Assembly (NCBI GenBank): GCA_021203365.1
Contig: JAJQBI010000028.1
Span: forward strand, 1-51,686
Direction: 5' to 3'
Source of the DNA: Clostridiales bacterium
GTDB taxonomy: Bacteria > Bacillota > Clostridia > Lachnospirales > Lachnospiraceae
DNA: 51,686 nt
Part shown: in pieces, positions 15,080 to 34,701 of the stretch
How positions within the stretch are numbered: the stretch's first letter is position 1
How the letters are laid out: every line of letters starts with the position of its first letter
Made by a program: the position numbers and the translations under genes
The notes under the pieces: generated by a model
Database searches by the model: none
Seen by the model: only the letters and a program-made list of their open reading frames with translations
Told to the model about the DNA's origin: nothing

Positions 15080-15108
15080 TTGCAGAATGCCGGTGTATGT
15101 GGTATGAT
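15080..15108 (+). promoter_or_regulatory. Promoter of the structured leader upstream of plsC
   Basis: TTGCAG (15080-15085), 17-bp spacer, TATGAT (15103-15108). Transcription would begin at about 15115, inside the first arm of the structured element. Confidence 0.7.
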
Positions 15109-15110
15109 AT

Positions 15111-15178
15111 GATACAAGGATTTCGGGAGCACGAAGTGCGGACACCCGTAGGGCGCTCTATGAGGAAATCCGTGTATC
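15111..15178 (+). ncRNA. Structured RNA element, copy 1 (leader of plsC)
   Basis: Outer stem GATACAAGGATTTC (15111-15124) pairs with GAAATCCGTGTATC (15165-15178) with one mismatch. Inside are two short hairpins, GCAC-GAA-GTGC (15129-15139) and CCC-GTA-GGG (15145-15153), and a possible GAG/CTC helix, giving a three-way junction. The 40-nt core matches copy 2 (near 34.6 kb) at 34 positions. Two base pairs of the first hairpin and most of the outer stem change together between copies. It has its own promoter. The plsC ribosome site begins 17 nt after it. It is not one of the well-known riboswitches I can recognise. Confidence 0.6.
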
Positions 15179-15205
15179 ATAGCGGCGACATAGGGAGGGG
15201 AAAAG

Positions 15206-15928
15206 ATGAAGCGGATTTTGCTGATGGTGGTGCGGAATATTGTCAGGATTCCATATGCGTGGATAAAGCTTTGCTATCTTGCGGCCCATGTGGATCAATA
15301 TCCGGAGAAGGAGCTGTATGAATATCTGCGCTGGATGGATTTTCATGCGAACCGGGGCGGGAATGTAAAGATTGATGTCTGCGGCCTGGAAAATGTGCCT
15401 GAAAAGGACGGGTTTATTTTTTTCCCCAATCACCAGGGGCTGTATGACGTGCTGGCTGTGATCGAGGCCTTTCCCCGCCCGTTTTCCGTGGTGGCGAAAA
15501 AAGAGATCGGGGATATTCCTTTCCTGAAACAGGTATTCGCCTGTATGAGGGCCTACATGCTGGACCGGGAGGATGTGCGGCAGGCCATGCAGGTGATCCT
15601 GGAGGTTTCCCGGCAGGTGAAGGACGGGCGCAACTATCTGATTTTTGCAGAAGGGACCCGCTCCAGGAACGGGAACCGAATCGGCGAATTCAAGGGCGGA
15701 AGCTTTAAGGCGGCGACGAAGGCCCGCTGTCCCATTGTTCCGGTGGCCCTGATTGATTCCTTTAAGCCCTTTGATACAAATACAACAAAGCCGGTAACCG
15801 TGAAGGTGATTTTCCTTCCGCCGCTGAATTATGAGGATTATATGAATATGAAGACAACGGAGATTGCGCGGCTGGTACAGGAGAGAATCCAGACGGCGAT
15901 CAATGAGAGGATCGGAATGGACGGATAA
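15206..15928 (+). CDS. plsC: 1-acyl-sn-glycerol-3-phosphate acyltransferase
   Basis: Adds the second acyl chain to lysophosphatidic acid in phospholipid synthesis, at the inner face of the membrane. 240 residues. The acyltransferase motif NHxxxxD is seen as NHQGLYD (His76, Asp81) and the glycerol-phosphate-binding motif as FAEGTRSR near residue 148. The N-terminal hydrophobic stretch is short. Ribosome site GGGAGGGG. It is transcribed alone, behind a structured leader, and followed by the separate ileS leader. Confidence 0.9.
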   Translation: MKRILLMVVRNIVRIPYAWIKLCYLAAHVDQYPEKELYEYLRWMDFHANRGGNVKIDVCGLENVPEKDGFIFFPNHQGLYDVLAVIEAFPRPFSVVAKKEIGDIPFLKQVFACMRAYMLDREDVRQAMQVILEVSRQVKDGRNYLIFAEGTRSRNGNRIGEFKGGSFKAATKARCPIVPVALIDSFKPFDTNTTKPVTVKVIFLPPLNYEDYMNMKTTEIARLVQERIQTAINERIGMDG

Positions 15929-15965
15929 ATCGTAACTTTTAAATCAGTAAATTGCCGGAAAGGTC

Positions 15966-15995
15966 TTGACAGATGGTTTTTAATACCTTTATAAT
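15966..15995 (+). promoter_or_regulatory. ileS promoter
   Basis: TTGACA (15966-15971), 18-bp spacer, TATAAT (15990-15995). It begins a leader of about 400 nt that contains the T-box. Confidence 0.85.
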
Positions 15996-16119
15996 AGCGG
16001 TGTTGCGCGGATTCGTGCATTTATTTATGAAGAATCAGCTTTGATGGAGACAGTATGCCGCTGGGTTTTGCATCAGGAAGACTGTACAGAGATACTGAGA
16101 GTATGTACAGGCGTCCGCA

Positions 16120-16374
16120 GAATCCGGGAGAAAGAGACAGCGAGTCGGGAAGGGTGGAAGCCCGGCGCGAGTATCGGCGGCGGAAAATCGCTCCGGAGCT
16201 TTGGGCCTGAAGGACGGCGGCCACCGCGATAGGTTTCGCGGAGACAGAAGAGTCTGGTAAGGGTCAACGGTTTTCCCCCGTTATCGGGAACGTGTATCGG
16301 CAGAGACGCCCGTATATGTAACAGGTGGTATAGCGAAATCAGACTTCGTCCTTTTACAGGGGGAAGTTTTTTTT
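16120..16374 (+). promoter_or_regulatory. Isoleucine T-box leader with terminator
   Basis: A tRNA-sensing leader of ileS. Stem I shows AGCGAGTCGG and GGGTGGAAGCCC, then the specifier loop GGAAAATCG with the codon ATC (16187-16189) for isoleucine. The T-box bulge sequence appears as AACAGGTGGTATAGCG (16320-16335). A terminator follows, in which ACTTCGTCC (16343-16351) pairs with GGGGGAAGT (16359-16367), then a T-run to 16374. Uncharged tRNA-Ile would favour the antiterminator and let ileS be read. The boundary on the 5' side is approximate. Confidence 0.88.
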
Positions 16375-16399
16375 AATCACAGGAGTAGGAGGAGAAATT

Positions 16400-19300
16400 G
16401 TGTACCAGAAAGTTGATACGAATCTGAATTTCGTGGACCGCGAAAAAAAAGTGGAAAAATTCTGGAAGGAAAACCATATCTTTGAAAAAAGTATGGAAAA
16501 CCGCAAAGAAGGCGAAACCTATACCTTTTATGACGGACCGCCCACGGCCAACGGAAAGCCCCATATCGGCCATGTGCTGACCCGTGTAATCAAGGATATG
16601 ATCCCGAGATATCGTACCATGAAGGGATATATGGTTCCCCGAAAGGCCGGATGGGATACCCATGGACTTCCTGTGGAGCTGGAAGTAGAGCGCAAGCTTG
16701 GTCTGGACGGCAAGGATCAGATCGAAGAATATGGCATTGAGCCATTTATAAAAGAATGCAAGGAAAGTGTATGGAAATACAAGGGGATGTGGGAGGATTT
16801 TTCCTCTACCGTGGGCTTCTGGGCGGATATGGAGCATCCCTATGTCACTTATGACGACGACTATATTGAATCGGAATGGTGGGCGCTGAAGGAAATCTGG
16901 AATAAAAATCTTCTTTATAAGGGATTTAAGATTGTTCCTTACTGCCCCCGCTGTGGAACCCCCCTTTCTGCTCAGGAAGTTTCCCAGGGATATAAAACCG
17001 TAAAAGAGCGGTCTGCCATCGTGCGCTTTAAGGTGAAGGGCGAGGATGCCTATTTCCTGGCCTGGACAACCACGCCCTGGACGCTGCCCTCCAATGTGGG
17101 CCTGTGTGTAAATCCGCAGGAGACCTATTGTAAGGTGAAGGCTGCGGACGGCTACACCTACTATATGGCGGAAGCTCTGCTGGATACCGTTCTCGGAAAA
17201 CTGGCGAAGGACGATTCGCCCGCCTACCAGGTGCTGGGGACCTTCCGGGGGACAGATCTGGAATATAAAGAATATGAGCCTTTGTTTGCCTGCGCCGGGG
17301 AGGCGGCGGCCAGACAGAATAAAAAGGGATTTTACATTACCTGTGATTCCTATGTTACCATGAGCGACGGTACCGGAATCGTTCACATTGCCCCGGCCTT
17401 TGGTGAGGACGACGGAAGGGTGGGACGCAACTATGATCTGCCTTTCGTGCAGTTTGTGGATGGAAAAGGAAATATGACCGATGACACGGCCTACGGCGGA
17501 ATCTTTGTGAAGGACGCGGATCCGAAGATCCTTGTGGATCTGGACAAGGAAGGCAAGCTTTTTGACGCGCCCAGATTTGAACATGATTATCCGCACTGCT
17601 GGCGGTGTGACACTCCTCTGATCTATTATGCCCGTGAGTCCTGGTTTATCAAAATGACCGCGGTGAAGGAGGATCTGATCCGGAACAACAATACCATCAA
17701 CTGGATTCCGGAGAGTATCGGAAAGGGACGTTTCGGGGACTGGCTGGAGAACGTACAGGACTGGGGAATTTCCCGGAACCGTTACTGGGGAACCCCGCTG
17801 AATATCTGGGAATGTGGCTGTGGTCATATGCATTCTGTGGGAAGCCGTCAGGAGCTGTTTGAAATGAGCGGCGATGAGCGGGCGAAAACCGTGGAGCTTC
17901 ACCGTCCCTATATTGATGAGATAACCCTGAAGTGTCCGAAGTGCGGCGGAGCCATGCACCGTGTGCCGGAGGTGATCGACTGCTGGTTTGACTCAGGCGC
18001 CATGCCTTTTGCCCAGCATCACTATCCATTTGAGAATCAGGAGCTGTTCCGGCAGCAGTTTCCGGCGCAGTTTATCTCGGAGGCGGTAGATCAGACGAGA
18101 GGCTGGTTTTACTCTCTCCTGGCGGAATCTACCATTCTGTTTAACTGTTCTCCTTATGAGAACGTCATTGTACTGGGCCATGTTCAGGACGAAAACGGTC
18201 AGAAGATGAGCAAATCCAAAGGGAACGCGGTGGATCCCTTTGAGGCCCTGGAAAAATATGGCGCGGACGCCATCCGCTGGTATTTCTATATTAACAGTGC
18301 TCCCTGGCTGCCCAACCGCTTCCACGGAAAGGCGGTCGTGGAAGGCCAGAGAAAGTTTATGAGTACATTCTGGAATACCTATGCCTTTTTTGTACTGTAT
18401 GCAAATATTGACAATTTCGACGCAACCAAATATACTTTAGACTATGAGAGCCTTTCAGTGATGGACAGATGGCTTCTGAGCCGTCTGAACACCATGGTGA
18501 AAACTGTGGATGAGGGTCTGGCCGCCTATAAGATCCCGGAGAGCGCCAGAGCGCTTCAGGATTTTGTGGATGAGATGAGCAACTGGTATGTGCGCAGGAG
18601 CCGTGAACGCTTCTGGGCAAAGGGGATGGAACAGGATAAGATCAATGCCTACATGACCCTTTATACGGCTCTGGTGACCACCGCGAAGGCCGCGGCGCCC
18701 ATGATTCCCTTTATGACAGAGGATATCTATCTGAATCTGGTGAAAAGCATTGATCCGGAGGCGCCGGAGAGCATCCATCTGTGTGATTTCCCTGCGGTGA
18801 AAACACAGTGGATCGACACGGAGCTGGAAGGGAATATGAAGGAGCTTCTGGAGATTGTGGTTCTTGGCCGTGCCGCGAGAAATGCGGCGAATATCAAGAA
18901 CCGTCAGCCCATCGGCACCATGTATGTAAAAGCTGCGAAGGAAATGGAGCGTTTTTATACGGATATCATTGCAGATGAGCTGAATGTGAAGGAAGTAAGA
19001 TTTGCCGACAGCGTGGAAGATTTTATTTCCTACAGCTTTAAACCCCAGCTTCGCACCCTTGGTCCAAAGTACGGGAAGCTTCTGGGCGGGATCCGCAAAG
19101 CGCTTGCCTCCATCGACGGAGCGAAGGCGATGAGGGAGCTTCGTCAGAAGGGAGTTCTCACGCTGGAGATCGACGGAACGTCCGCGGAGCTCTCAGAGGA
19201 AGATTTACTGATTGAAACGGCCCAGACGGAGGGCTTTGTGACAGAGACCAGCGGAGAGACATCCGTGGTTCTGGACACCCGGCTGACCCCGGAGCTGGTT

Positions 19301-19567
19301 GAAGAAGGCTTTGTGCGTGAGATCATCAGCAAAGTGCAGACCATGCGCAGAGAAGCGGGATTTGAAGTTATGGACAGGATTATTGTCTATGCCCGGGAAA
19401 ATGAAAAAATCATGAATATCATGAAGACACACCAGGAAGAGATCCAGACAGAGGTTCTGGCTGAAGACATTTTACTGGGAGAAACCGAAGGCTATGTGAA
19501 GGAGTGGAACATCAATAAGGAGAAGGTGACACTCGGGGTAGTCAGGGTTGACGCTGATAAAAACTGA
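16400..19567 (+). CDS. ileS: Isoleucyl-tRNA synthetase (type 2)
   Basis: Charges tRNA-Ile. 1055 residues. Class I motifs: HIGH at 55-58 within DGPPTANGKPHIGH, and KMSKS at 602-606. Zinc-type Cys pairs occur in PYCPRCGTP and LKCPKCGG. The large editing domain lies between. Length and the N-terminal form (FVDREKKVEKFWKENHIFEKS) mark the type 2 (eukaryote-like) branch, which in other bacteria is linked with low sensitivity to mupirocin (family knowledge, not shown here). The GTG start at 16400 is supported by GGAGTAGGAGG upstream. It is controlled by the T-box in front of it. glgP follows 42 bp later. Confidence 0.96.
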   Translation: MYQKVDTNLNFVDREKKVEKFWKENHIFEKSMENRKEGETYTFYDGPPTANGKPHIGHVLTRVIKDMIPRYRTMKGYMVPRKAGWDTHGLPVELEVERKLGLDGKDQIEEYGIEPFIKECKESVWKYKGMWEDFSSTVGFWADMEHPYVTYDDDYIESEWWALKEIWNKNLLYKGFKIVPYCPRCGTPLSAQEVSQGYKTVKERSAIVRFKVKGEDAYFLAWTTTPWTLPSNVGLCVNPQETYCKVKAADGYTYYMAEALLDTVLGKLAKDDSPAYQVLGTFRGTDLEYKEYEPLFACAGEAAARQNKKGFYITCDSYVTMSDGTGIVHIAPAFGEDDGRVGRNYDLPFVQFVDGKGNMTDDTAYGGIFVKDADPKILVDLDKEGKLFDAPRFEHDYPHCWRCDTPLIYYARESWFIKMTAVKEDLIRNNNTINWIPESIGKGRFGDWLENVQDWGISRNRYWGTPLNIWECGCGHMHSVGSRQELFEMSGDERAKTVELHRPYIDEITLKCPKCGGAMHRVPEVIDCWFDSGAMPFAQHHYPFENQELFRQQFPAQFISEAVDQTRGWFYSLLAESTILFNCSPYENVIVLGHVQDENGQKMSKSKGNAVDPFEALEKYGADAIRWYFYINSAPWLPNRFHGKAVVEGQRKFMSTFWNTYAFFVLYANIDNFDATKYTLDYESLSVMDRWLLSRLNTMVKTVDEGLAAYKIPESARALQDFVDEMSNWYVRRSRERFWAKGMEQDKINAYMTLYTALVTTAKAAAPMIPFMTEDIYLNLVKSIDPEAPESIHLCDFPAVKTQWIDTELEGNMKELLEIVVLGRAARNAANIKNRQPIGTMYVKAAKEMERFYTDIIADELNVKEVRFADSVEDFISYSFKPQLRTLGPKYGKLLGGIRKALASIDGAKAMRELRQKGVLTLEIDGTSAELSEEDLLIETAQTEGFVTETSGETSVVLDTRLTPELVEEGFVREIISKVQTMRREAGFEVMDRIIVYARENEKIMNIMKTHQEEIQTEVLAEDILLGETEGYVKEWNINKEKVTLGVVRVDADKN

Positions 19568-19609
19568 CAACAGATTGGGGAGACACAACAACCATCAGGA
19601 GGGAAACGA

Positions 19610-22072
19610 ATGATTGACAAGCAGTTTCAGAAAGAGGAATTCAAGAAGAGTGTAAAGGACGCCGTAAAATTTCTCTACCGGAAGACCATTGAGGAGGCAA
19701 CACAGGAGCAGATTTTCCAGGCGGTAAGCTATGTGGTAAAGGATGTTATTATTGACAACTGGTTAAAATCACAGAATGCTTTTGCCCAGCAGGATCCCAA
19801 GATCGTGTACTATATGTCCATGGAGTTTCTGCTTGGCCGGGCACTGGGGAATAATCTGATCAATCTGGGTGCTTACGGTGAGGTAAAGGAGGCTCTTGAC
19901 GAGCTGGGCTTTGACCTGAATGTAATTGAGGATCAGGAGCCGGATCCCGCGCTGGGCAACGGAGGCCTGGGAAGACTGGCCGCCTGCTTCCTTGATTCTC
20001 TGGCTACTTTGAATTATTGTGCCTATGGCGAGGGAATCCGCTATCATTATGGAATGTTCAAGCAGGAGATTAAGGACGGATATCAGATTGAGGTTCCGGA
20101 TAACTGGCTGAAAAACGGCTATCCCTTTGAGCTGCGCCGTCCGGAATACGCCAAGGAAGTTCATTTCGGCGGTTATGTGAGGGTTGAGTACAATCCGGTT
20201 ACCCGTGAGAATAAATTTATTCATGAGGGTTATCAGTCTGTAAGAGCCGTACCCTATGATATGCCGATTGTGGGATATGACAATGATCTTGTGAACACGC
20301 TTCGGATCTGGGATGCGGAGCCGATTGTGGATTTTGCTCTGGATTCCTTTGACAAGGGAGATTACAAGAAGGCGGTTGAGCAGGAAAATCTGGCCAGAAA
20401 CATTGTGGAGGTGCTTTACCCCAACGACAATCATTACGCTGGAAAAGAGCTTCGTCTGAAACAGCAGTATTTCTTTGTCTCCGCGACCCTGCAGTCTGCG
20501 ATCGCGAAATATAAGAAGAATCATGATGATATCACGAAGCTCTATGAAAAAGCTGTCTTCCAGATGAACGACACCCATCCCACCGTAGCGGTTGCCGAGC
20601 TGATGCGTATTCTGATAGACGAGGAGGGCCTGGGCTGGGATCAGGCCTGGGAGGTTACCACCAAATCAGTGGCCTATACCAATCACACCATTATGTCCGA
20701 GGCTCTGGAGAAATGGCCCATCGAGCTGTTTTCACGCCTGCTTCCCAGGGTATATCAGATTATCGAGGAGATCAACCGGAGATTTATCCAGGAGATCCAG
20801 CAGAGATATCCGGGCAATTATGATAAGATTAAGAAGATGGCCATCATTTATGATGGACAGGTGAAGATGGCGCATCTGGCCATCGTTGCCGGTTATTCTG
20901 TAAACGGTGTGGCGAATCTGCATACCGAGATCCTGAAGAACCAGGAGCTGAGGGATTTCTATGAGATGATGCCCGGAAAGTTCAACAATAAGACCAACGG
21001 CATTACCCAGAGACGTTTCCTTCTTCACGGGAACCCGCTTCTCGCGGACTGGGTGACGGAGCACATCGGACCGGACTGGATCACCGATCTCTCCCAGCTG
21101 AGAAAGCTGGCGGTTTACGCGGACGATGAGAGGGCTCTTCAGGAGTTTATGAACATTAAGTTCCGCAACAAGCAGCGCCTGGCGAAATATATCCTGGAGC
21201 ACAACGGCGTGGAGGTGGATCCACATTCCATCTTTGATGTGCAGGTAAAGAGACTTCATGAGTACAAGCGCCAGCTGCTGAATATCCTTCATGTAATCTA
21301 TCTGTATAATCAGATCAAGATGCATCCGGAGCAGGATTTCTATCCCAGAACTTTCATTTTCGGTGCGAAGGCATCGGCGGGATATGAGCGCGCGAAGAAG
21401 ATTATCAAGCTGATCAACTCCGTGGCGGATGTGGTGAATAATGACGCTTCCATCAAGGGGAAACTGAAGGTAGTGTTTATTGAGAACTATCGGGTTTCCA
21501 ATGCGGAGATGATCTTTGCAGCGGCGGATGTTTCCGAGCAGATTTCCACGGCCAGCAAGGAGGCTTCCGGTACAGGAAACATGAAGTTTATGCTCAACGG
21601 AGCGCCTACTCTTGGAACCATGGACGGAGCCAATGTAGAGATTGTACAGGAGGTTGGCGAGGAGAACGCGTTTATCTTCGGCCTTTCCTCGGATGAGGTT
21701 ATCAATTATGAGAACAACGGCGGGTATGATCCTCATGTGATTTACAACACCGACGGGGATGTACGCCAGGTGCTGATGGAGCTGATTAACGGCACGTTCT
21801 CCAGCGATACGGAACTGTTCCGCGATCTCTATGATTCTCTGCTGACTACCCGGTATTCCAGCCGCCCGGATCAGTACTTTATTCTGGCAGATTTCCGCTC
21901 CTATGCTGAGGCGCAGAAGCGTGTGGAAGCCGCGTACAGAGATGAGAAAAGATGGGCGAAGATGGCTCTTCTGAATACGGCCTGCTGCGGAAAATTCTCT
22001 TCCGACCGTACCATTGAGGAGTATGTGAATGACATCTGGAAGCTGAATAAGGTGACTGTGAGGGAAAAATAA
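19610..22072 (+). CDS. glgP: Glycogen/alpha-glucan phosphorylase
   Basis: Phosphorolysis of alpha-1,4-glucan to glucose-1-phosphate. 820 residues, normal length. The pyridoxal-phosphate lysine is K659 in the signature EASGTGNMKFMLNG, followed by GTMDGANVEI. N-terminal ALGNGGLGRLAACFLDS and the FQMNDTHPT block are intact. Ribosome site CAGGAGGG. No other glycogen genes are adjacent. It may be partly cotranscribed with ileS because no terminator separates them. Confidence 0.96.
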   Translation: MIDKQFQKEEFKKSVKDAVKFLYRKTIEEATQEQIFQAVSYVVKDVIIDNWLKSQNAFAQQDPKIVYYMSMEFLLGRALGNNLINLGAYGEVKEALDELGFDLNVIEDQEPDPALGNGGLGRLAACFLDSLATLNYCAYGEGIRYHYGMFKQEIKDGYQIEVPDNWLKNGYPFELRRPEYAKEVHFGGYVRVEYNPVTRENKFIHEGYQSVRAVPYDMPIVGYDNDLVNTLRIWDAEPIVDFALDSFDKGDYKKAVEQENLARNIVEVLYPNDNHYAGKELRLKQQYFFVSATLQSAIAKYKKNHDDITKLYEKAVFQMNDTHPTVAVAELMRILIDEEGLGWDQAWEVTTKSVAYTNHTIMSEALEKWPIELFSRLLPRVYQIIEEINRRFIQEIQQRYPGNYDKIKKMAIIYDGQVKMAHLAIVAGYSVNGVANLHTEILKNQELRDFYEMMPGKFNNKTNGITQRRFLLHGNPLLADWVTEHIGPDWITDLSQLRKLAVYADDERALQEFMNIKFRNKQRLAKYILEHNGVEVDPHSIFDVQVKRLHEYKRQLLNILHVIYLYNQIKMHPEQDFYPRTFIFGAKASAGYERAKKIIKLINSVADVVNNDASIKGKLKVVFIENYRVSNAEMIFAAADVSEQISTASKEASGTGNMKFMLNGAPTLGTMDGANVEIVQEVGEENAFIFGLSSDEVINYENNGGYDPHVIYNTDGDVRQVLMELINGTFSSDTELFRDLYDSLLTTRYSSRPDQYFILADFRSYAEAQKRVEAAYRDEKRWAKMALLNTACCGKFSSDRTIEEYVNDIWKLNKVTVREK

Positions 22073-22154
22073 ATCAGCGGAGGAGGCCGGTTCTGTCAGG
22101 CAGAATGCTGGAAAAAGCCTCTTGCTGTCAACGCTGTGTGAAGTGAATGAGTAT

Positions 22155-22196
22155 AGCCCCGGCGGCCGGTTCTGTGTGAATGTGCCACCGGGGTTT
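22155..22196 (+). terminator. Hairpin after glgP
   Basis: CCCCGGCGGC pairs with GTGCCACCGGGG over most of its length, followed by TTTGGTTAT. A 12-bp direct repeat, GGCCGGTTCTGT, occurs at 22085-22096 and inside the hairpin at 22164-22175. Termination is likely but not certain, given the short T-run. Confidence 0.5.
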
Positions 22197-22224
22197 GGTT
22201 ATCCCAAAGGAGTGATAGATAAAC

Positions 22225-23520
22225 GTGGACGCAGACGGTATAATTCAGCTGCTGATACTGATGGTTCTTCTGATGCTTTCTGCATTTTTTTCGTCCTGTG
22301 AGACGGCTCTTACCATGGTAAACAAGGTGCGGCTTCGCACACTGGCCGATGATGGAGATAAAACGGCGGCGCTGGTTCTTGATATGGCGGAAAACAAAAC
22401 CTCCAAGATGCTCAGTGCCATTCTCATCGGCAATAATATTGTGAATATCTCCGCGTCCGCTCTTGCGACGACTCTTGCGTACAGGGTTGGAGGCTATATG
22501 ATCAGCCTGGTGACCGCACTGCTCACCATACTGATTCTGATTTTCGGGGAGGTAACGCCCAAGAATTACGCGACCATTAACGCGGAAAAAATATCTCTGC
22601 GCTATGGGAGAATTATTTATGGCTTTATGGTGATCACAACGCCGGCTATTTTTGTGCTGAATTTTATCTGTCGCCGGGTGCTGCGCCTGCTGGGGGTAGA
22701 TCTGGATTCGAAAAATCCGGCCATGACAGAGGAGGAGCTGCGTACTATTGTGGATGTCAGCCATGAGGACGGAGTAATCGAATCCGATGAAAAAGAGATG
22801 ATTTACAATGTCTTTGATTTTGAGGATGTGAAGGCCAGGGACATTATGGTGCCGCGGGTGCATGTTACCTTTGCGGATGTGGACAGCACCTACGAAGAAC
22901 TGCTGGAGATCTATCAGGAAGAGAAATATACCCGGCTTCCGGTCTACGAAGAAAACCAGGACAACATTGTGGGAATCATCAACATGAAGGATCTGCTGCT
23001 GTATGATAAATACCGTCCCTTTCATGTGCGGGATATTATGCGGGAGCCTCATTTTACCTACGAATACCGGGGGGTTTCCGAACTGCTGGGGGAGATGCGA
23101 TCAGGCGCGTTTAATATTACCGTTGTGCTGAATGAGTACGGCGAGGTGGCCGGGCTGGTCACGCTGGAGGATATCCTGGAGGAGATTGTGGGTGAGATCC
23201 GGGATGAGTTTGACGAAGACGAGGAAGACAAGGTATCTCAGCTTTCCGAGAGGGAATATATCGTGGACGGCGCCATGAGTCTGGATGATGTGAATGACCG
23301 GCTGAATACGGGGCTGACCTCTGAGGACTACGATTCTCTGGGCGGTTACGTCATTGAACACCTGGGACGTTTTCCGGAGGCCGGAGATGAGATCTCCACG
23401 GAGGACGGGACGAGGCTTCGAGTGGAGAAGTTAAATAAGAATCATATTGAACGCATATATGTCTCCCTTCCGGAAAATGCAGAGGAAGAGGAAGCGTCAA
23501 AAGAGGAGCAGCCGGATTAA
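22225..23520 (+). CDS. CNNM/HlyC-CorC family membrane protein with CBS domains
   Basis: Membrane protein of the CNNM (DUF21) family, 431 residues. The N-terminal DUF21 domain has three to four helices (LLMLSAFFSSCETALTMVN start, ALATTLAYRVGGYMIS). Two CBS domains follow (about residues 205-320: ARDIMVPRVHVTF and VRDIMREPHFTY), then a C-terminal transporter-associated CorC/HlyC domain (LGGYVIEHLGRFPEAGDEI). Relatives are implicated in magnesium/cobalt efflux; the hemolysin name is historical. GTG start with a distant AAAGGAG. The stop codon lies in its terminator loop. Confidence 0.9.
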   Translation: MDADGIIQLLILMVLLMLSAFFSSCETALTMVNKVRLRTLADDGDKTAALVLDMAENKTSKMLSAILIGNNIVNISASALATTLAYRVGGYMISLVTALLTILILIFGEVTPKNYATINAEKISLRYGRIIYGFMVITTPAIFVLNFICRRVLRLLGVDLDSKNPAMTEEELRTIVDVSHEDGVIESDEKEMIYNVFDFEDVKARDIMVPRVHVTFADVDSTYEELLEIYQEEKYTRLPVYEENQDNIVGIINMKDLLLYDKYRPFHVRDIMREPHFTYEYRGVSELLGEMRSGAFNITVVLNEYGEVAGLVTLEDILEEIVGEIRDEFDEDEEDKVSQLSEREYIVDGAMSLDDVNDRLNTGLTSEDYDSLGGYVIEHLGRFPEAGDEISTEDGTRLRVEKLNKNHIERIYVSLPENAEEEEASKEEQPD

Positions 23521-23532
23521 ATCGGCTGCTCC
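23505..23532 (+). terminator. Terminator overlapping the CNNM-family stop codon
   Basis: GGAGCAGCCG (23505-23514) pairs with CGGCTGCTCC (23523-23532). The TAA stop is in the loop region and TTCTGT follows. Confidence 0.75.
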
Positions 23533-23578
23533 TTCTGTATGATTCTGTTATTGTGTGATACCAGGATCAAATGATTGA

Positions 23579-23601
23579 AACGACAAAAGGTATTTGTCGT
23601 T
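23579..23601. terminator. Hairpin between convergent CNNM-type and araA-like genes
   Basis: AACGACAAA and TTTGTCGTT pair perfectly (9 bp, 5-nt loop) just downstream of the araA-like stop on the minus strand. Confidence 0.5.
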
Positions 23602-23636
23602 GTCCCTTGTATCATTAAATGCTTTTAACCTCAACA

Positions 23637-25055: not shown

Positions 25056-25107
25056 AAAACCGTCCTCCTGCTCTGTTTAATTTTTGATAAAATTATCTGC
25101 TTTCTTT

Positions 25108-25136
25108 ATTTTATAAGACAAGAGCGGAAATAGCAA
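25108..25136 (-). promoter_or_regulatory. Promoter of the arabinose-isomerase-family gene
   Basis: Minus strand TTGCTA (25136-25131), 17-bp spacer, TAAAAT (25113-25108), about 53 bp upstream of the start codon. Confidence 0.65.
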
Positions 25137-25185
25137 GCTTTTTCTGAGTCTTTACAGATACCATTCACGATTTTGGAAAATTGCA

Positions 25186-25214
25186 TTGCAAAACCTTTGT
25201 GAATTAGGTATATT
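25186..25214 (+). promoter_or_regulatory. Promoter of the ECF transporter operon
   Basis: TTGCAA (25186-25191), 17-bp spacer, TATATT (25209-25214). The leader is short, about 45 nt, with no room for a riboswitch. Confidence 0.65.
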
Positions 25215-25265
25215 ATTCATTGTATTTATTTTTTACATTCTACATAAGAAAGGAAGGAAGAAGTC

Positions 25266-25820
25266 ATGAAGAATAAGTTTGGTATCCGGGAAGTGGTGGC
25301 CATCGGCATTGGAACTGCGCTGTTTGTGGTACTGACCAATGTGCAGATTCCGGTAGGATTCATTCCCAACACGGCGCTGCAGACCCGCGCGGCTGTGCTG
25401 GCATTTTTTGCTGCGATTTTCGGTCCCATTGTGGGTGGCGCGGTGGGCCTGATCGGGCATGCGCTGGGCGACGCACTTTTTTACGGAAGCGTATGGTGGA
25501 GCTGGGTATTCCCGGAGGCAGTCTTCGGCATTCTGGTGGGCCTTTTTGCCAGGTTCTATAAGGTGAGGAAGGGTTCATTCGGAGCGAAGCAGATTGCAGT
25601 TTTTAATATTGTACAGGCCATTGCCAATGTAATTGCATGGGTGCTGGCGGCGCCGGCTCTGGATATCGCGATTTACGCGGAGCCCGCCAACAAGGTTTTT
25701 GTACAGGGTGCGACCTCCTGCATTCTGAATATTGTGATCATTGCGATCCTTGGGACACTGCTTCTTGCCGCTTATTCCAGAGTCGGGGCAAAAACCGGAA
25801 GTCTTTCCAAAGAGGACTGA
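25266..25820 (+). CDS. ECF transporter S component (UPF0397 family)
   Basis: Substrate-binding membrane subunit of an energy-coupling-factor transporter, 184 residues with five to six helices. The block GIGTALFVVL...IPNTALQTRAAVLAFFAAIFGP...GHALGDALFYGSVWWSW matches the UPF0397 family. Substrate is not established by sequence. The absence of a vitamin riboswitch means regulation gives no clue. Ribosome site AAGGAAGGAAG. Double-ATPase and T-component genes follow directly. Confidence 0.87.
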   Translation: MKNKFGIREVVAIGIGTALFVVLTNVQIPVGFIPNTALQTRAAVLAFFAAIFGPIVGGAVGLIGHALGDALFYGSVWWSWVFPEAVFGILVGLFARFYKVRKGSFGAKQIAVFNIVQAIANVIAWVLAAPALDIAIYAEPANKVFVQGATSCILNIVIIAILGTLLLAAYSRVGAKTGSLSKED

Positions 25821-25823
25821 TCT

Positions 25824-27578: not shown

Positions 27579-28383
27579 GAAAAAGGATACCTGGATCGAC
27601 CGGTTGTCCGGTGTGTCCAAGATGCTGTTCTTTCTCCTCTGGTCCATTACAGGCATGCTGACCTATGATACACGGGTTCTGGCGGTGATGCTGGTGGTAA
27701 GCCTTGTGATTTTCAAAGTGTCAGAGACGGAATGGAGTCAGGTGGGAACCGTGTTTAAATTTATCACATTTTTCCTTTGCCTGAACCTTCTGGCTGTGTG
27801 GATTTTCTCTCCCTACCAGGGGACAGAGATCTACGGGACCAAAACTCTCCTCCTGACCCTGCCCTGGGATCACAGTCTCACTGCGGAGCAGCTTTTTTAT
27901 GAGCTGAACATCGCGCTGAAATATTTTACGGTGACTCCAGTGGTTCTGATGTTTATTGTCAACACCAATCCCAGTGAGTTTGCCGCTAGCCTGAACCGGA
28001 TCGGGGTCAGCTATAAGGTGGGGTATTCCATTGCCATCGCCCTGCGTTATATCCCGGACGTCCAGGCGGATTTTACCAAGATCAGGAATGCTCAGGAAGC
28101 CAGGGGAATTGAGATGAGCAGCAAGACTTCTATCTGGCAGCGGGTGAAGAGAATGAGCGCCATTATTTTTCCCCTGCTGTTCTCCAGTATAGACCGGATC
28201 GACGTGGTCAGCAACGCCATGGAGCTGCGGGGCTTCGGAAAAAACAGAAAGCGGACCTGGTATATGGGCAAAAAACTGTCCCGCAGTGATTACGCCGCGA
28301 TCTTCTTCGCGGTTGCGTTTATGATAGTGGCGCTGGCCATTACCTACGCGGACGGAAGTCGGTTCTGGAATCCTTTTCTATAA
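27553..28383 (+). CDS. ECF transporter T component (EcfT/CbiQ family)
   Basis: Membrane scaffold joining S component to ATPase, 276 residues. It has four to five helices and the two coupling-helix motifs with ARG: AQEARGIEMSS and AMELRGFGKNRK. The start lies inside the end of the ATPase gene with AAAGGAGGTGG as ribosome site, so translation is coupled. Last gene of the three-gene ECF operon. Confidence 0.9.
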   Translation: MAGRLLTYKKKDTWIDRLSGVSKMLFFLLWSITGMLTYDTRVLAVMLVVSLVIFKVSETEWSQVGTVFKFITFFLCLNLLAVWIFSPYQGTEIYGTKTLLLTLPWDHSLTAEQLFYELNIALKYFTVTPVVLMFIVNTNPSEFAASLNRIGVSYKVGYSIAIALRYIPDVQADFTKIRNAQEARGIEMSSKTSIWQRVKRMSAIIFPLLFSSIDRIDVVSNAMELRGFGKNRKRTWYMGKKLSRSDYAAIFFAVAFMIVALAITYADGSRFWNPFL

Positions 28384-28421
28384 TCCTTTTGCAGGTGGTT
28401 TTGTACCTTATTAAGAACATA

Positions 28422-28439
28422 TCGTTAAACCGTTGACAA
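28422..28439. promoter_or_regulatory. Rex-like redox operator over the pflB -35 region
   Basis: TCGTTAAACCGTTGACAA matches 12 of the 14 fixed positions of the Rex site TTGTTAA-N4-TTAACAA. It contains the TTGACA (28433-28438) that looks like the -35 box of pflB. Rex senses NADH/NAD and commonly controls fermentation genes in Clostridia (family knowledge). Binding here is inferred. Confidence 0.55.
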
Positions 28440-28604
28440 TAAAAATTGTACATGATAAGTTGTACCTGGGTAATGAGAGAACGCTCATTACAGGGTTAAG
28501 CGGAAACAGGAAACGAGAGTGCGCACATCATCGGGGTTCCTGTTGAATATATTCATCGGGGCACGAATATTTTAAGGGCTGATGAACCACCATAATAAGT
28601 GAAA
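28433..28604 (+). promoter_or_regulatory. pflB promoter and structured leader
   Basis: TTGACA at 28433-28438 with a weak -10 (ATAAGT/TAAGTT near 28455-28461). Directly repeated TTGTAC flanks the -10. The leader holds the hairpin GTAATGAG-agaacg-CTCATTAC (about 28470-28491) and a longer one formed by AACAGGAA and TTCCTGTT (about 28505-28544). No known riboswitch was recognised. Confidence 0.5.
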
Positions 28605-28618
28605 GGAGTGCATTGCAA

Positions 28619-30871
28619 GTGGCAGAATTTACACAGTGGGATGGATTTGAGGGTGTGGTATGGAAAGAGAGAGTAGCTGTCCGCGATTTCATCCAGCATA
28701 ATTATAAACCCTATGAAGGCGACGAGTCTTTCCTGGAAGGACCTACCGAGGCGACCGATAAGCTCTGGGGAAGACTGCAGGAGCTGCAGAAAGAGGAGCG
28801 GGCCAAGGGCGGCGTTCTGGATATGGAGACAGACGTTGTGTCCGGCATTGACGCTTACGGCGCCGCCTATATTGACGACAGCATGAAGGATCTGGAGAAG
28901 GTTGTGGGCCTTCAGACAGACAAGCCTCTGAAGCGGGCGTTTATGCCTTACGGCGGTATCAACATGGCGGAGCAGTCCTGCAAGATGTACGGCTATGAGC
29001 CAAACGAGCAGATTCATGAAATATTTACCAAATATCACAAGACCCATAACCAGGGTGTATTTGACATCTACACCCCGGAAATGAAGAAGGCCCGTCACAA
29101 CAAGATTCTTACCGGTCTGCCGGACACCTATGCCCGGGGCCGTATCGTGGGCGATTATCGCCGCGTGGCGCTGTACGGAATTGATTACCTGATTGAGAAA
29201 AAGCTGAAGGATTTTGAGGCCACGGCCCGTCACGGCATGCGCCGCGGAGATTTCCAGCTTCGGGAGGAGATTTCCGATCAGGTCCGGGCTCTGAAGGCCA
29301 TGAAGGTAATGGCCCAGTCCTACGGTTATGATATTTCCCAGCCCGCGAAGGATGCCAGAGAGGCGTTCCAGTGGCTGTATTTCGGATATCTGGCAGCCAT
29401 CAAGACTCAGAATGGCGCTGCCATGAGTGTGGGCCGTATTTCCACCTTCCTTGATATTTATGTGGAAAGAGACCTGGCGAAGGGAATTCTTACCGAGAAA
29501 GAGGCCCAGGAGCTGGTGGATCACTTTGTGATGAAGCTCCGCATGGTAAAATTCGCAAGACCGGAATCCTATAATCAGCTGTTCTCCGGAGACCCGGTAT
29601 GGGCCACTCTGGTTGTGGGCGGCATTGGCATGGACGGTCGTTCCATGGTGACCAAGAACGATTATCGTTTCCTGCACACACTGCAGAACATGGGACCGTC
29701 CCCGGAGCCCAACCTGACGGTTCTCTATTCCTCCAGACTGCCGGAGAATTTTAAGAAATTTGTATCTCTGATCTCCATTGAGACCAGCTCGATCCAGTAT
29801 GAGAATGACTGTGTGATGCGTCCGGAGTGGGGCGATGACTATTCCATCTGCTGCTGTGTATCCGCGACCGAGACCGGCAAGGAAATTCAGTTCTTCGGCG
29901 CCCGAGCCAACCTGGCCAAGTGTCTCCTCTACGCCATCAACGGCGGTGTGGATGAGAAGACCTTCCAGCAGGTGGCTCCGGAATATGAGAAGATTACCTC
30001 CGAGTATCTGGACTATGACGAGGTGATCCGCAAGTATGAGCAGATGATGGACTGGCTGGCACACCTGTATGTGGGTACGCTGAACATGATTCATTATATG
30101 CATGACAAATACTATTATGAGGCGGCGGAGATGGCGCTGATCGATACTAATGTGCGCCGTACCTTTGCAACCGGCATCGCAGGCTTCTCTCATGTGGTGG
30201 ATTCCCTGTCTGCCATCAAATATGCGAAGGTAAAGGCCATCCGCAATGAGAACGGCATTGCCACAGATTTTGAGGTGGAGGGCGACTTCCCACGCTACGG
30301 CAATGATGACGACCGTGCGGACCGCATTGCGAAGTGGCTGCTGAATACCTTCCTCTCGAAAATCAAATACGTGCATACCTACCGGGATTCCAAGCCCACC
30401 ACCTCCATTCTTACCATTACCTCCAATGTGGTTTATGGAAAGGCTACCGGATCTCTTCCGGACGGAAGAAAGGGCGGTGAGCCGCTGTCTCCCGGAGCCA
30501 ACCCCAGCTACGGCGCGGAGAAGAACGGGCTTCTTGCCTCACTGAATTCCGTAGCCAAGCTGCCCTACGAGGACGCTCTGGATGGGATTTCCAATACCCA
30601 GACCATTAATCCGGGCGCGCTGGGACACAACACCGAGGAACGTGTGGAGAATATGTGGCATGTACTGGACGGCTATTTTGACCAGGGCGCACATCACCTG
30701 AATGTAAACGTGTTCGGGAAGGAAAAGCTGGTGGACGCCATGGAGCATCCGGAAAAAGAGGAGTACGCGAATTTTACCATCCGTGTTTCCGGTTATGCCG
30801 TGAAGTTTATTGACCTGACCAGAGAGCAGCAGCTGGATGTAATTGCCAGAACCTGCCATGAAAGGATGTAA
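28619..30871 (+). CDS. pflB: Formate C-acetyltransferase (pyruvate formate-lyase)
   Basis: Converts pyruvate and CoA to acetyl-CoA and formate by a glycyl-radical mechanism, under strictly anaerobic conditions. 750 residues from the GTG at 28619, which sits about 10 nt after AAAGGAG; a TTG at 28613 is too close. The active-site cysteine pair lies in [14 protein letters not shown] (Cys412-Cys413 by analogy). The glycyl radical is Gly725 in RVSGYAV near the C-terminus. Neighbour pflA follows without a gap. A Rex-like site overlaps its promoter. Confidence 0.97.
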
Positions 30872-31615
30872 ATGACAAAAGGAGAAATGACGGGCTACGT
30901 TCATTCTCTGGAAAGCTTTGGGTCCGTGGACGGACCGGGTGTCCGGTTTGTGATTTTTTTCAGCGGCTGTGGGATGCGCTGCCAGTTCTGTCACAATCCG
31001 GATACCTGGGACATCCGGACGGGGACCCGGTACACCGCCGGTGAGCTGGTGGAAAAAGCCTGGAAATACCGCGCTTACTGGGGAAGTAAGGGCGGTATTA
31101 CTGTCAGCGGAGGCGAGCCCCTGTTACAGATGGAATTCCTGACGGAGCTTTTCCGGAAGGCGAAGGAGAAGGGAATCCATACGACGCTGGATACCAGCGG
31201 CAATCCCTATACCACGCGGGAACCCTGGCATTCTGAATTTGAAACCCTGATGAAATATACGGATCTGGTGATGCTGGATATCAAGCACATTGATGAGGAA
31301 CAGCACCGAATCCTCACCGGCCAGACAAACCGGAACATTCTGGAGATGGCGGTCTGTCTTTCGGATATGGGAATTCCCGTCTGGATCCGCCATGTGCTGG
31401 TTCCGGAGCGAAATGACCGGGACGAGTATCTTTATCGTCTGGCGGATTTCATTCACACACTGAAGAATGTGGAGAAGGTGGAGGTGCTTCCCTATCATAC
31501 CCTGGGAGTTTTTAAGTGGGAGAATCTTCATCTGGATTATCCTTTGAAGGGGATTGATCCCCCCACTGCACAGAGGGTGGAAAACGCCAGAAGGATTCTT
31601 GGATGTGAGGAGTAA
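30872..31615 (+). CDS. pflA: Pyruvate formate-lyase activating enzyme
   Basis: Radical-SAM enzyme that installs the glycyl radical on PflB. 247 residues. The 4Fe-4S motif CxxxCxxC is CGMRCQFC, followed by HNPDTWD, typical of PflA. GGE motif in TVSGGEPLLQ binds SAM. The ATG follows the pflB stop immediately, and the ribosome site GAAAGGATG lies within the end of pflB, so the two are translationally coupled. A hairpin ends the unit. Confidence 0.97.
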   Translation: MTKGEMTGYVHSLESFGSVDGPGVRFVIFFSGCGMRCQFCHNPDTWDIRTGTRYTAGELVEKAWKYRAYWGSKGGITVSGGEPLLQMEFLTELFRKAKEKGIHTTLDTSGNPYTTREPWHSEFETLMKYTDLVMLDIKHIDEEQHRILTGQTNRNILEMAVCLSDMGIPVWIRHVLVPERNDRDEYLYRLADFIHTLKNVEKVEVLPYHTLGVFKWENLHLDYPLKGIDPPTAQRVENARRILGCEE

Positions 31616-31829
31616 AGGGCGGAGAAAAGCGCCCGCCGTTTGCAGGAATAAATCAGTTTACAAATTGGTTTGGATGTGGTACGCTTTTCTAAGTGAAAAT
31701 CTGTCTTCTCATGAATGGAATGACAAGGACAGGCCTGCGTCGGCGGGCCTGTCCGTTTAGGAGCTGTAACGGGATGCGCAGGCCGTCCCGCTGCAGTTTC
31801 TTAGTATATTTGAACGGAGGAAATCACAC
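31616..31829 (+). other. Intergenic region pflA/metG
   Basis: It contains the terminator described separately and a weak promoter-like pair TTTACA (31656-31661) with TACGCT 17 bp later. No T-box or other leader was found for metG. Confidence 0.4.
31727..31754 (+). terminator. Terminator after pflA
   Basis: GGACAGGCC (31727-31735) pairs with GGCCTGTCC (31746-31754), followed by GTTTAG. Strong stem, weak T-run. Confidence 0.6.
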
Positions 31830-33800
31830 ATGGAAAAGCAGAAATATTACATTACCACAGCGATCGCCTATACATCGGGCAAGCCTCACATCGGCAATAC
31901 CTATGAGATCGTTCTCGCAGACGCCATTGCCCGTTTTAAACGGCAGCAGGGTTATGACGTACGTTTTCAGACCGGAACCGACGAGCACGGACAGAAGATT
32001 GAGCTGAAGGCCGCAGAGGCAGGCGTTACGCCCAAGGAGTTTGTGGACAGCGTGGCGGGCGAAATCAAGGGGATCTGGGATCTGATGAATACCTCCTATG
32101 ATAAATTTATCCGCACCACGGATGAGGACCATGAGAAACAGGTCCGGAAGATTTTCAGGAAAATGTACGCCAAGGGGGATATCTATAAGGGCGCCTATGA
32201 GGGACTTTACTGTACGCCCTGTGAGTCCTTCTGGACGGAATCCCAGCTGGTGGACGGAAAGTGCCCGGACTGCGGCCGGGAGGTGAAGCCGGCTAAGGAG
32301 GAAGCCTACTTCTTCCGTATGAGCAAGTACGCGGATCGTCTGATCGAGCACATTAACTCCCATCCGGAATTTATCCAGCCGGTTTCCCGCAAGAATGAGA
32401 TGATGAACAACTTCCTTCTTCCGGGTCTGCAGGATCTGTGTGTATCCCGGACCTCCTTCAAATGGGGAATTCCGGTGGATTTTGATCCCGGCCATGTGGT
32501 TTATGTGTGGCTGGACGCGCTGACCAACTATATTACCGGCATTGGCTATGACTGCGACGGGGAGAGCGACGAGATGTTCAGCCGCTACTGGCCTGCGGAT
32601 CTGCATCTGATCGGAAAGGATATTATCCGCTTTCATACGATTTACTGGCCCATTTTCCTGATGTCTCTGGATCTTCCGCTGCCGAAGCAGGTGTTTGGCC
32701 ATCCCTGGCTTCTGCAGGGAGATGGGAAAATGAGCAAGTCCAGGGGAAATGTACTCTATGCGGACGAACTGGTGGATTTCTTCGGCGTGGACGCGGTGCG
32801 CTATTTTGTTCTGCATGAGATGCCCTTTGAAAACGACGGTGTAATCACCTGGGAACTGATGGTGGAGCGCCTGAATTCCGAGCTTGCCAACACCATGGGG
32901 AATCTGGTAAACCGCACCATCTCCATGTCCAACAAATATTTCGGCGGAGTCGTGGAGAACAAAGGAGTGTCCGAGCCGGTGGATGAGGAACTGAAATCCT
33001 TTATTCTGGCGGTTCCGAAGAGGACTGAGGCAAAGATGGACGAGCTGCGTGTGGCGGATGCCATCACGGAAGTGTTCTCAATTTTCAAACGCTGCAATAA
33101 ATATATTGACGAGACCATGCCCTGGGCTCTGGCAAAGGATGAGACGAAGCAGGACCGTCTGGCCACGGTGCTTTACAATCTGGTGGAGGGAATCGTGATC
33201 GGCGCTTCTCTGCTCCGGGCCTTTATGCCGGATACCACGGACCGGATCCTTGCCCAGCTGAACGTTGTGGAACGGCCTCTTTCCCAGATGGATTCTTTTG
33301 GCCTGTACCCCTCCGGAAATAAGGTGACGGCCAGGCCGGAGATCCTGTTTGCCCGTCTGGATGTGAAGGAGGTCCTGGCCCGGGTGGAGGCTCTGCATCC
33401 CGCGGAGCCGGAAAAGGCACAGGAGGAGCCGAAGAGCGAACCGGAGGATTTGGCGGTGGATATGGAACCGAAGCCGGAGATCACCTACGACGACTTTGCG
33501 AAGCTTCAGCTTCAGGTCGGTGAGGTGGTTGCCTGTGAGGCGGTGAAAAAATCAAGAAAGCTTCTCTGCTTCCAGGTGAAGGTGGGAAGCCGGGTCCGCC
33601 AGATTGTCTCCGGAATCAAGGCATATTACGCGCCGGAGGACCTGATCGGGAAAAAGGTGATGGTGGTAACCAATCTGAAACCCGCGAAGCTGGCCGGTCT
33701 GGTCAGTGAGGGCATGATCCTCAGCGCGGAGGATGCAGACGGAAATGTGTGTGTGATGGTCCCCGAGAAGGATATGCCGGCGGGGGCGGAAATCTGCTGA
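31830..33800 (+). CDS. metG: Methionyl-tRNA synthetase with C-terminal tRNA-binding domain
   Basis: Charges tRNA-Met. 656 residues. The HIGH-type motif reads HIGN (20-23) and KMSKS is at 300-304. One Cys-x2-Cys zinc knuckle pair (CTPC, CPDC, about 127-148) lies between. The C-terminal 110 residues (DFAKLQLQVGEVVACEAVKKSRKL onward) form an OB-fold tRNA-binding/dimerisation domain, joined by an acidic Pro/Glu-rich linker. Ribosome site ACGGAGGA. tatD follows one base after the stop, so the two are one unit. Confidence 0.96.
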   Translation: MEKQKYYITTAIAYTSGKPHIGNTYEIVLADAIARFKRQQGYDVRFQTGTDEHGQKIELKAAEAGVTPKEFVDSVAGEIKGIWDLMNTSYDKFIRTTDEDHEKQVRKIFRKMYAKGDIYKGAYEGLYCTPCESFWTESQLVDGKCPDCGREVKPAKEEAYFFRMSKYADRLIEHINSHPEFIQPVSRKNEMMNNFLLPGLQDLCVSRTSFKWGIPVDFDPGHVVYVWLDALTNYITGIGYDCDGESDEMFSRYWPADLHLIGKDIIRFHTIYWPIFLMSLDLPLPKQVFGHPWLLQGDGKMSKSRGNVLYADELVDFFGVDAVRYFVLHEMPFENDGVITWELMVERLNSELANTMGNLVNRTISMSNKYFGGVVENKGVSEPVDEELKSFILAVPKRTEAKMDELRVADAITEVFSIFKRCNKYIDETMPWALAKDETKQDRLATVLYNLVEGIVIGASLLRAFMPDTTDRILAQLNVVERPLSQMDSFGLYPSGNKVTARPEILFARLDVKEVLARVEALHPAEPEKAQEEPKSEPEDLAVDMEPKPEITYDDFAKLQLQVGEVVACEAVKKSRKLLCFQVKVGSRVRQIVSGIKAYYAPEDLIGKKVMVVTNLKPAKLAGLVSEGMILSAEDADGNVCVMVPEKDMPAGAEIC

Positions 33801-33801
33801 T

Positions 33802-34587
33802 ATGGATACGCTCATATTTGACACCCATGCGCACTACGATGATGAGGCTTTTGACGGGGACCGGGAGACGCTCCTTGCGTCCCTTAAGGCCGGGGGAATC
33901 GGCTGGGCCGTGAACGCCTGCGCCTCAGTGGACGGCTTTTCCCGGGCACTGGCCCTGGGAGAGAAATATCCTTTTATTTATAATGCCATAGGCGTTCATC
34001 CGGATGACGCGGACCGGATGACACCGGAAACCCTGGAGGAGATCCGCCGGCTCTGTGACCGGGAAAAAACAGTGGCAGTGGGTGAGATCGGCCTGGACTA
34101 TTACTGGCATAAGGAGAAAGAGGAGCACCTGCGGCAGCAGGAAATGTTCCGGGCCCAGATGGAAATTGCCCGGGAGAAAAGGCTTCCTTTTATGATTCAC
34201 AGCCGGGATGCGGCTTCGGATACTCTGGAGATTGTGCGGGAGTATATGGCCGGGGGAATGTACGGCGGAATCATTCACTGCTTTTCCTACAGCCGGGAAA
34301 TTGCCAGGGAATATCTGAACATGGGACTTTTCCTGGGAATCGGTGGAGTCGTCACCTTTAAAAATGCCCGCAGGCTGAAGGAGGTGGTGGAATATGCGCC
34401 TCTTTCCCAGCTGGTGCTGGAGACAGACTGCCCCTACCTGGCGCCGGTTCCCTTCCGGGGAAAGCGGAATTCCTCCCTGTACCTCCCTCTGGTGGCGGAA
34501 GCCATCGCAGAACTGAAAAAAATAACGCCGGAGGAGGTCGTCACGGCCACCACCCGGAACGCGAAAACCCTTCTGAACCTGGTATAA
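33802..34587 (+). CDS. tatD: TatD-family metal-dependent hydrolase
   Basis: Amidohydrolase-fold enzyme; relatives are 3'-5' DNA exonucleases or D-aminoacyl-tRNA-like hydrolases. 261 residues. Metal ligands are seen as HAH (His9, His11) in FDTHAHYD, Glu in AVGEIGLDYYW, His in MIHSRDA, His in IIHCFSYS and Asp in ETDCPYLAP. It starts one nt after metG, the common metG-tatD pairing. Its stop codon TAA is part of the TATAAT that begins the next element. Confidence 0.93.
   Translation: MDTLIFDTHAHYDDEAFDGDRETLLASLKAGGIGWAVNACASVDGFSRALALGEKYPFIYNAIGVHPDDADRMTPETLEEIRRLCDREKTVAVGEIGLDYYWHKEKEEHLRQQEMFRAQMEIAREKRLPFMIHSRDAASDTLEIVREYMAGGMYGGIIHCFSYSREIAREYLNMGLFLGIGGVVTFKNARRLKEVVEYAPLSQLVLETDCPYLAPVPFRGKRNSSLYLPLVAEAIAELKKITPEEVVTATTRNAKTLLNLV
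34579..34587 (+). promoter_or_regulatory. Extended -10 promoter of structured element copy 2
   Basis: TGGTATAAT spans the tatD stop codon. No good -35 is visible, but the TGn extension can compensate. Copy 1 has TGGTATGAT in the same relative place, suggesting that the promoter belongs to the repeated unit. Confidence 0.5.
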
Positions 34588-34596
34588 TGCTGATGA

Positions 34597-34701
34597 TGAG
34601 AATTCCGGGAGTGCGAGGCACGGACACCCGTAGGGCGCTCTGTGAGGGAATTCTCAGGTATCATTTAAAAAAGTTATACCGGGCCCGGAAGGGCTTTTTT
34701 T
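34597..34701 (+). ncRNA. Structured RNA element, copy 2, with terminator: candidate small RNA
   Basis: Outer stem TGAGAATTCC (34597-34606) pairs perfectly with GGAATTCTCA (34647-34656). Core hairpins are GTGC-GAG-GCAC (34611-34621) and CCC-GTA-GGG (34627-34635). The core matches copy 1 at 34 of 40 positions, with compensating changes in the stems. It is followed by GCCC-GGAA-GGGC and seven T's (34683-34701), a likely terminator that also serves the convergent phosphate operon. Promoter, fold and terminator together could make a free RNA of about 100 nt. Confidence 0.55.

Follow-up and report, generated by a model that had tools for sequence, protein, structure and literature searches.

The 51,686-nt stretch of DNA analysed here (the window) carries two copies of a short structured sequence, the first upstream of a plsC-like acyltransferase gene (15111 to about 15182) and the second downstream of tatD (34592-34664). 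The copies and the features surrounding them are collected in Table 1. Within a 41-nt core (GGGAG...TGAGG), 35 bases are identical between the two copies, in agreement with the 34 of 40 given in the preliminary description of this DNA. Four of the six core differences lie in the stem of a small hairpin, which remains paired in both versions, while one lies in the hairpin loop and one elsewhere. The outer stems differ in sequence yet are paired in each copy, and folding agrees with what had been described on this point as well. Compared with shuffled sequences, RNA folding gave z = -5.0 for copy 1 (none of 200 shuffles as good) and z = -3.7 for copy 2 (1 of 200 shuffles as good).

Table 1. Features at the two element copies (window positions)
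Feature	Position	Strand	Remarks
Promoter-like site before copy 1, TTTGCA-18-TATGAT	15079..15108	+	9/12 matches; host sequence, outside the element
Copy 1, short subfamily-A element	15111..15192	+	P4 and a P1 remnant present; no P2 or P3; right end apparently degenerate; R1 match and alignment
Copy 1 P1 5' arm and left terminal-repeat start, GATACA	15111..15116	+	Pairs with 15173-15178 (TGTATC); folding
Copy 1 P4	15118..15171	+	Arms 15118-15124 / 15165-15171; folding; arms compared over 20 copies
Copy 1 P4 hairpin, GCAC-GAA-GTGC	15129..15139	+	Two-sided changes
Copy 1 22-nt insertion in P4	15143..15164	+	In neither the Rfam consensus nor the unextended copies
plsC-like acyltransferase gene, downstream of copy 1	15206..15928	+	PF01553, E 9.9e-28
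tatD, ends 4 nt before copy 2	33802..34587	+	PF01026, E 2.7e-81
Copy 2, short subfamily-B element	34592..34664	+	P4 kept; most of left end, P2, P3 and right end absent
Copy 2 P4	34598..34655	+	Arms 34598-34606 / 34647-34655; folding
Copy 2 P4 hairpin, GTGC-GAG-GCAC	34611..34621	+	Two-sided changes, alignment
Copy 2 22-nt insertion in P4	34625..34646	+	Alignment
Terminator-like hairpin after copy 2	34681..34696	+	6 pairs, 4 of them G-C, then a T run; outside the element

The two copies are not an isolated pair, as had been supposed, but members of a repeat family. A 17-nt piece of the core occurs 22 times in the genome with no more than 2 mismatches, compared with 4 times for a reversed control; one of the 22 (L019) is unrelated. 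A covariance model, R1, was built from an alignment of 20 copies, 14 from this genome and 6 from MAGs, with both window copies included and five duplicates, L015, L020, L025 and two spurious L024 rows left out. R1 matches at least 63 places in the 3.1-Mb genome at E <= 0.01 (150 of 1801 candidates scored) and occurs in at least 13 of 397 Lachnospiraceae genomes, this one included (few candidates scored per genome). The window copies, both of which are among its training sequences, score 91.9 bits (15112-15182) and 85.3 bits (34594-34666). The full element in this genome is about 190-240 bp long, encodes no gene and contains nested palindromic helices P1 to P4. Both long and short forms exist, and the copies fall into subfamily A, with a GGATTTC stem and a GCAC/GTGC hairpin, and subfamily B, with GAGAATTCC and a GTGC/GCAC hairpin. 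Copy 1 is a short A element, in which 15179-15192 probably represents the degenerate right end as judged by eye, and copy 2 is a short B element. Two MAG copies (L026, L029) carry a third version of the hairpin, GCGC/GCGC, and the two inner pairs of this hairpin show 6 and 9 two-sided changes across the 20 aligned copies. Because each subfamily comprises many copies, the compensating change between copies 1 and 2 is a subfamily difference, rather than two events at these loci.

Copies of the family adjoin many unrelated genes in all orientations. An automatic ORF call encloses 7 of the 37 copies with enough flank, and no obvious orientation bias relative to genes is seen in the remaining 30. 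Derivatives consisting of P2 only or of the ends only were seen at L045, L187, L188, L189 and similar places, indicating internal deletions of several kinds in this genome. By eye, a similar sequence of 20-odd nucleotides also appears to have entered the element at two points; it reads ACACCGCAGGCGCCCTGTGGGG in P3 and CACCCGYAGGGCGCTCTRTGAG in P4, and was noticed in L007 and L012 (P3 internal loop), in L089 and in both window copies (P4). The P4 insertion was also considered as a possible dispersed repeat in its own right, and a search with a degenerate pattern, which by its wording excludes element copies, returned two places, both within genes. L019 and L024 each contain two look-alikes of this insertion (CACCCGNAGGGCGTNYCTTG), 57 nt and 76 nt apart, respectively, which lie outside the element and in or close to reading frames.

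The long members of the family correspond to an existing Rfam family, RF01699 (Clostridiales-1). All nine long-copy loci submitted to Rfam match RF01699, eight from this genome with 61-82 bits and one from a Lachnospiraceae MAG (L026) with 93.6 bits. Across the whole genome there are 42 matches (E <= 0.001), of which 35 exceed the 48-bit cut-off and the best reaches 128.9 bits, and all 42 overlap places found with R1. Long copies of this genome cover the whole RF01699 model, P1 to P4, above the cut-off. Conversely, 28 of the 63 R1 places in this genome are not above the RF01699 cut-off, and many copies thus escape the Rfam model. Furthermore, RF01699 occurs in at least 215 of 397 Lachnospiraceae genomes (this genome included; few candidates scored per genome), in at least 177 of them above the cut-off. 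In one of the long-copy loci, a cobalamin riboswitch (RF00174, 104 bits) lies at L007:339-526, upstream of the element copy.

The window copies themselves are not among the 42 genome matches, P2 and P3 being missing, and a scan of the window at Rfam gathering scores returned a tRNA only, with no RF01699 at either copy. A permissive scan of the 271 bases around copy 1 gave a single match, to RF01699, of 11.2 bits over model positions 133-150. The window copies bear the P4 hairpin of RF01699 at the corresponding place, weakly matched in copy 1. They differ from the Rfam family in the absence of P2, P3 and the right end and in the added 22-nt insertion in P4, and it is because of these losses and this insertion that Rfam misses them. 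By the R1 model, the copies are classed as derivatives of RF01699, not as full members. Consequently, the proposal of a new RNA family is only partly upheld: the structured family with compensating changes stands, and its novelty does not. The preliminary description had named a match to a known Rfam family or to a described DNA repeat as grounds for refutation; both apply here, although the paper that defined RF01699 had already proposed an RNA. In that paper, Clostridiales-1 is a table row, listed as probably RNA, probably not cis-regulatory, and found in Clostridiales and the human gut (Weinberg et al. 2010, PMC2864571).

While Rfam types RF01699 as an sRNA gene, the family described here shows terminal repeats and target duplications. 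The long element starts with GATACMAGGGWCAAAAGG and ends with its imperfect inverse, CTTTTGACCCCAACATC in subfamily B or CTTTTGTCGCTTCAATC in subfamily A. The terminal-repeat pattern, with at most 1 mismatch, was found at 191 places in the genome compared with 16 for the reversed control. The duplication test dropped copies lacking the right end (among them both window copies) or 20 nt of flank. Among the 30 copies of this genome with both ends located, 18 are flanked by an exact duplication, 16 of 7 bp and 2 others of 8 bp, and 12 are not; mispaired flanks from these copies agreed in 5 of 870 cases at 7 bp and in none of 870 at 8 bp. Similar results were obtained for 20 copies from other genomes, with an exact duplication in 9 (7 bp in 7, 8 bp in 2) and none in 11, compared with agreement of mispaired flanks in 6 of 380 cases at 7 bp and 0 of 380 at 8 bp. 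The duplicated target of 7-8 bp is AT-rich. Among the short copies, L062 and L022/L050 have exact 7-bp duplications by eye, and the remaining ones have none. The possibility that copies terminated at P1 have an alternative right end there, with separate duplications, was rejected: of about 8 viewed by eye, just one (L063) had a repeat, of 5 bp. The family has both the terminal inverted repeats and the target-site duplications of miniature inverted-repeat transposable elements (MITEs) and, on the strength of these sequence features, behaves as one.

Three further observations concern the genome G271. In this complete genome the end pattern occurs at 78 places compared with 1 for the reversed control. 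The list of places suggests two adjacent tandem copies near 541242-541616, in the neighbourhood of L130. At L202 (G271:C1:3000900-3003700), two perfect, facing terminal repeats lie 2.1 kb apart around ordinary-looking reading frames, and no matching duplication was seen by eye in the flanks; L202 may be either two decayed copies or a unit bearing other genes.

In the preliminary description, copy 1 is the plsC leader, considered here as a cis-regulatory one, and copy 2 a possible free RNA, each behind a -10 box. A promoter-like site of modest quality does precede copy 1, at a distance from the plsC start that suits a leader, and a terminator-like hairpin does follow copy 2, although it is no part of the element. 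No promoter at threshold precedes copy 2, where the 'TATAAT' includes the stop codon of tatD, and a transcript from the start predicted for copy 1 would begin within the element and lack the P1 arm. Furthermore, among nine other genomes of the genus, in which plsC orthologues were identified in 7 and tatD orthologues in 9, the element core is absent from 7/7 plsC and 9/9 tatD loci (L219 offers only about 120 nt after tatD). The flanks of these loci do not align with those of the window, so that they are not exact empty sites. A scan of the family for promoter sites (<=4 mismatches), which disallowed the 2-nt gap in the -10 box of copy 1, gave a site before 4 of the 11 short copies, compared with 17% in shuffles, and before 8 of the 21 long ones (one long locus counted twice), compared with 25% in shuffles; reading in from the right side, sites were found at 2 of 8 short and 7 of 20 long copies. 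A promoter as a family feature is not supported, as there is no clear enrichment over shuffles. Together with the many unrelated genes that the copies adjoin in all orientations, these results make a conserved plsC leader and a free RNA at these loci very improbable.

A different question is whether the fold of the whole family is that of a functional RNA. According to this explanation, RF01699 is a structured RNA carried on, or forming, the body of the MITE, with one strand transcribed and its fold selected for transcript stabilisation, protein binding, or action on transposase or host mRNAs. Long sequences from other genomes (30 fetched, of which three were dropped for short flanks, leaving 27) and two from this genome, 29 in all, were used to examine the fold. 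The consensus fold of these sequences reaches -47.3 compared with a mean of -0.6 over 50 column shuffles, and of the 45 pairs in which Watson-Crick cells make up at least 70%, 32 are found as two or more Watson-Crick types, indicating that the stems are conserved. The consensus fold of the opposite strand reaches -28.5, and the Rfam strand is the more stable in all 29 sequences. These results, along with the listing of Clostridiales-1 as probably RNA in the table of Weinberg et al. (PMC2864571), are in favor of a functional RNA. However, palindromic DNA covaries too. Pairs chosen by the RNA folder contain 76 G-U and 20 A-C cells, a ratio that was considered as a sign of strand selection and set aside when it fell to 26:15 (18 and 11 pairs) with pairs chosen symmetrically; within the copies of this genome the counts are 5 and 6 sites. 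Clear promoter enrichment and an obvious orientation bias relative to genes are both lacking, as described above. The compensating changes support a stem, and do not favor RNA over palindromic DNA. Since the symmetric counts do not separate the two, a functional RNA with a selected fold is retained as a tentative and rather unlikely explanation. Equally doubtful is the wider proposal that Clostridiales-1 is an RNA-bearing MITE, widespread in Lachnospiraceae, whose selected transcript fold acts in its spread or in host regulation. If that were true, forms with internal deletions, the window copies among them, would give rise to new transcribed hairpins near genes.

The nature of the enzyme that moves the MITE was also considered. 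The folded body and the hairpins close to its two ends could suggest an element of the IS200/IS605 type, a REP-like repeat or the remnant of a TnpB guide RNA, moved as single-stranded DNA. IS200/IS605 elements are not known to make target duplications, while the present element makes duplications of 7-8 bp. There was no match to the TnpB zinc-ribbon domain in the genome (84% complete), and its sole Y1-transposase match is interrupted by a stop and does not have a pair of any of the end motifs tested. On these grounds, single-strand movers and guide-RNA remnants of this kind were rejected as extremely improbable.

More promising are elements that share the terminal repeat. Nine contigs of the assembly run 47-55 nt into other elements that carry this terminal repeat and break off there; five of these elements begin GATTTGAGCGACAAAAGGGTAAG and four GATTTAGGCGACAAAAGGTAAGC, with their interiors beyond the contig ends. 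Contig C47 ends inside a MITE copy and is thus not among the nine. From their sequence, these nine contig ends look like unresolved multi-copy insertion sequences. Their end pattern is confined to this genome among the 397 Lachnospiraceae genomes. One site shared by two other genomes (G232 and G282) has a GATTAGGGTGTCAAAAGG end and, after it, an IS1182-like transposase gene with a broken frame. This piece matches PF13751 (E 4.1e-12) and NF033551, the NCBIfam model for IS1182 (E 2.7e-20, 72.8 bits), the latter below the 270-bit cut-off, the query being a fragment. A related transposase (39.7% identity), again in pieces, is present in the human-gut record MT838951, where an end reading inward TGATGTTAGGGTCAAAACC lies about 120 bp past the transposase and is identical to the MITE right end at 17 of 19 positions by eye. 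An IS1182-like transposase accordingly adjoins the same terminal repeat both at the G232/G282 site and in MT838951. A ACCTTGAA motif further in is common, by eye, to G232, MT838951, a viral contig (L244) and the second of the two types of element at the contig ends of this genome; the first type is cut off at ACCTT. Because the MITE shares its terminal repeat with ends that adjoin IS1182-like transposase pieces, an IS1182-like transposase is the likely partner of the MITE. No transposase was found at the other end-pattern matches whose neighbourhoods were read (G191, G232, G271, G282). Searches of viral contigs, plasmids and phages turned up no intact insertion sequence with both ends and yielded MT838951 and the contig end L244; the pattern GATACCAGGGTCAAAAGG had no match in viral contigs.

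The best explanation of these results, considered highly probable, is that a gene-less MITE whose full form is RF01699 left the window copies as insertions that have since decayed and suffered internal deletions, with an IS1182-like transposase as the most likely mover. The full MITE duplicates a 7-8 bp AT-rich target, and it is proposed that an IS1182-like transposase would most likely recognise the shared terminal repeat and move the MITE in trans. P2, P3 and the right end are missing from copy 1, and from copy 2 most of the left end as well. Neither window copy keeps both ends, and their arrival by transposition is inferred from the intact members of the family. Copies in the plsC leader and after tatD would fold in any transcript crossing them, with local effects at most, and are probably passive. 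Several results count against this explanation. The lack of an intact IS1182-like element with both ends, a transposase piece below the NF033551 cut-off, the copies with no exact duplication (12/30 and 11/20) and orthologue loci that are no exact empty sites have been described above. In addition, the duplication of 7-8 bp is unlike the 4 bp of ISPse1, and conserved, covarying stems exceed what transposition acting on the ends alone would need.

Part of the interest of these findings lies in the reclassification of RF01699 as an IS1182-linked MITE, of which the window copies, on the best reading, are truncated and decayed examples. If this is correct, an Rfam sRNA family present in more than half of the Lachnospiraceae genomes searched is a transposable element, annotation would be labelling copies of a transposon as genes for RNA, and the covariation seen between dispersed copies would count as weak evidence of a function as RNA. 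The reading also names a testable partner in the IS1182-like transposase. In the titles and abstract openings covered, no link between RF01699 and a transposable element was found; the reading may be new, and an earlier statement of it is possible.

Comparison with known systems places the family close to, and apart from, several of them. Similar to the IS1182 family, the terminal repeat is found together with the ACCTTGAA motif further in, beside pieces of IS1182-like transposase. In contrast to members of that family, the MITE has no gene, and its duplication is longer than the 4 bp listed for ISPse1 (PMC3281130); it differs as well from the inverted-repeat-replacing mechanism named for IS1272 in the title of PMC5678879. 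Like other bacterial MITEs, the element is short, gene-less and multicopy, with imperfect terminal inverted repeats, target duplications and a terminal repeat common to an insertion sequence, while its elaborate four-helix fold, conserved across genera and covarying, sets it apart from them. BOX, RUP, ERIC and NEMIS are likewise repeats scattered between genes, fold as RNA or as DNA and show modular internal deletions, and they differ from the present family in their sequences, hosts and terminal repeats.
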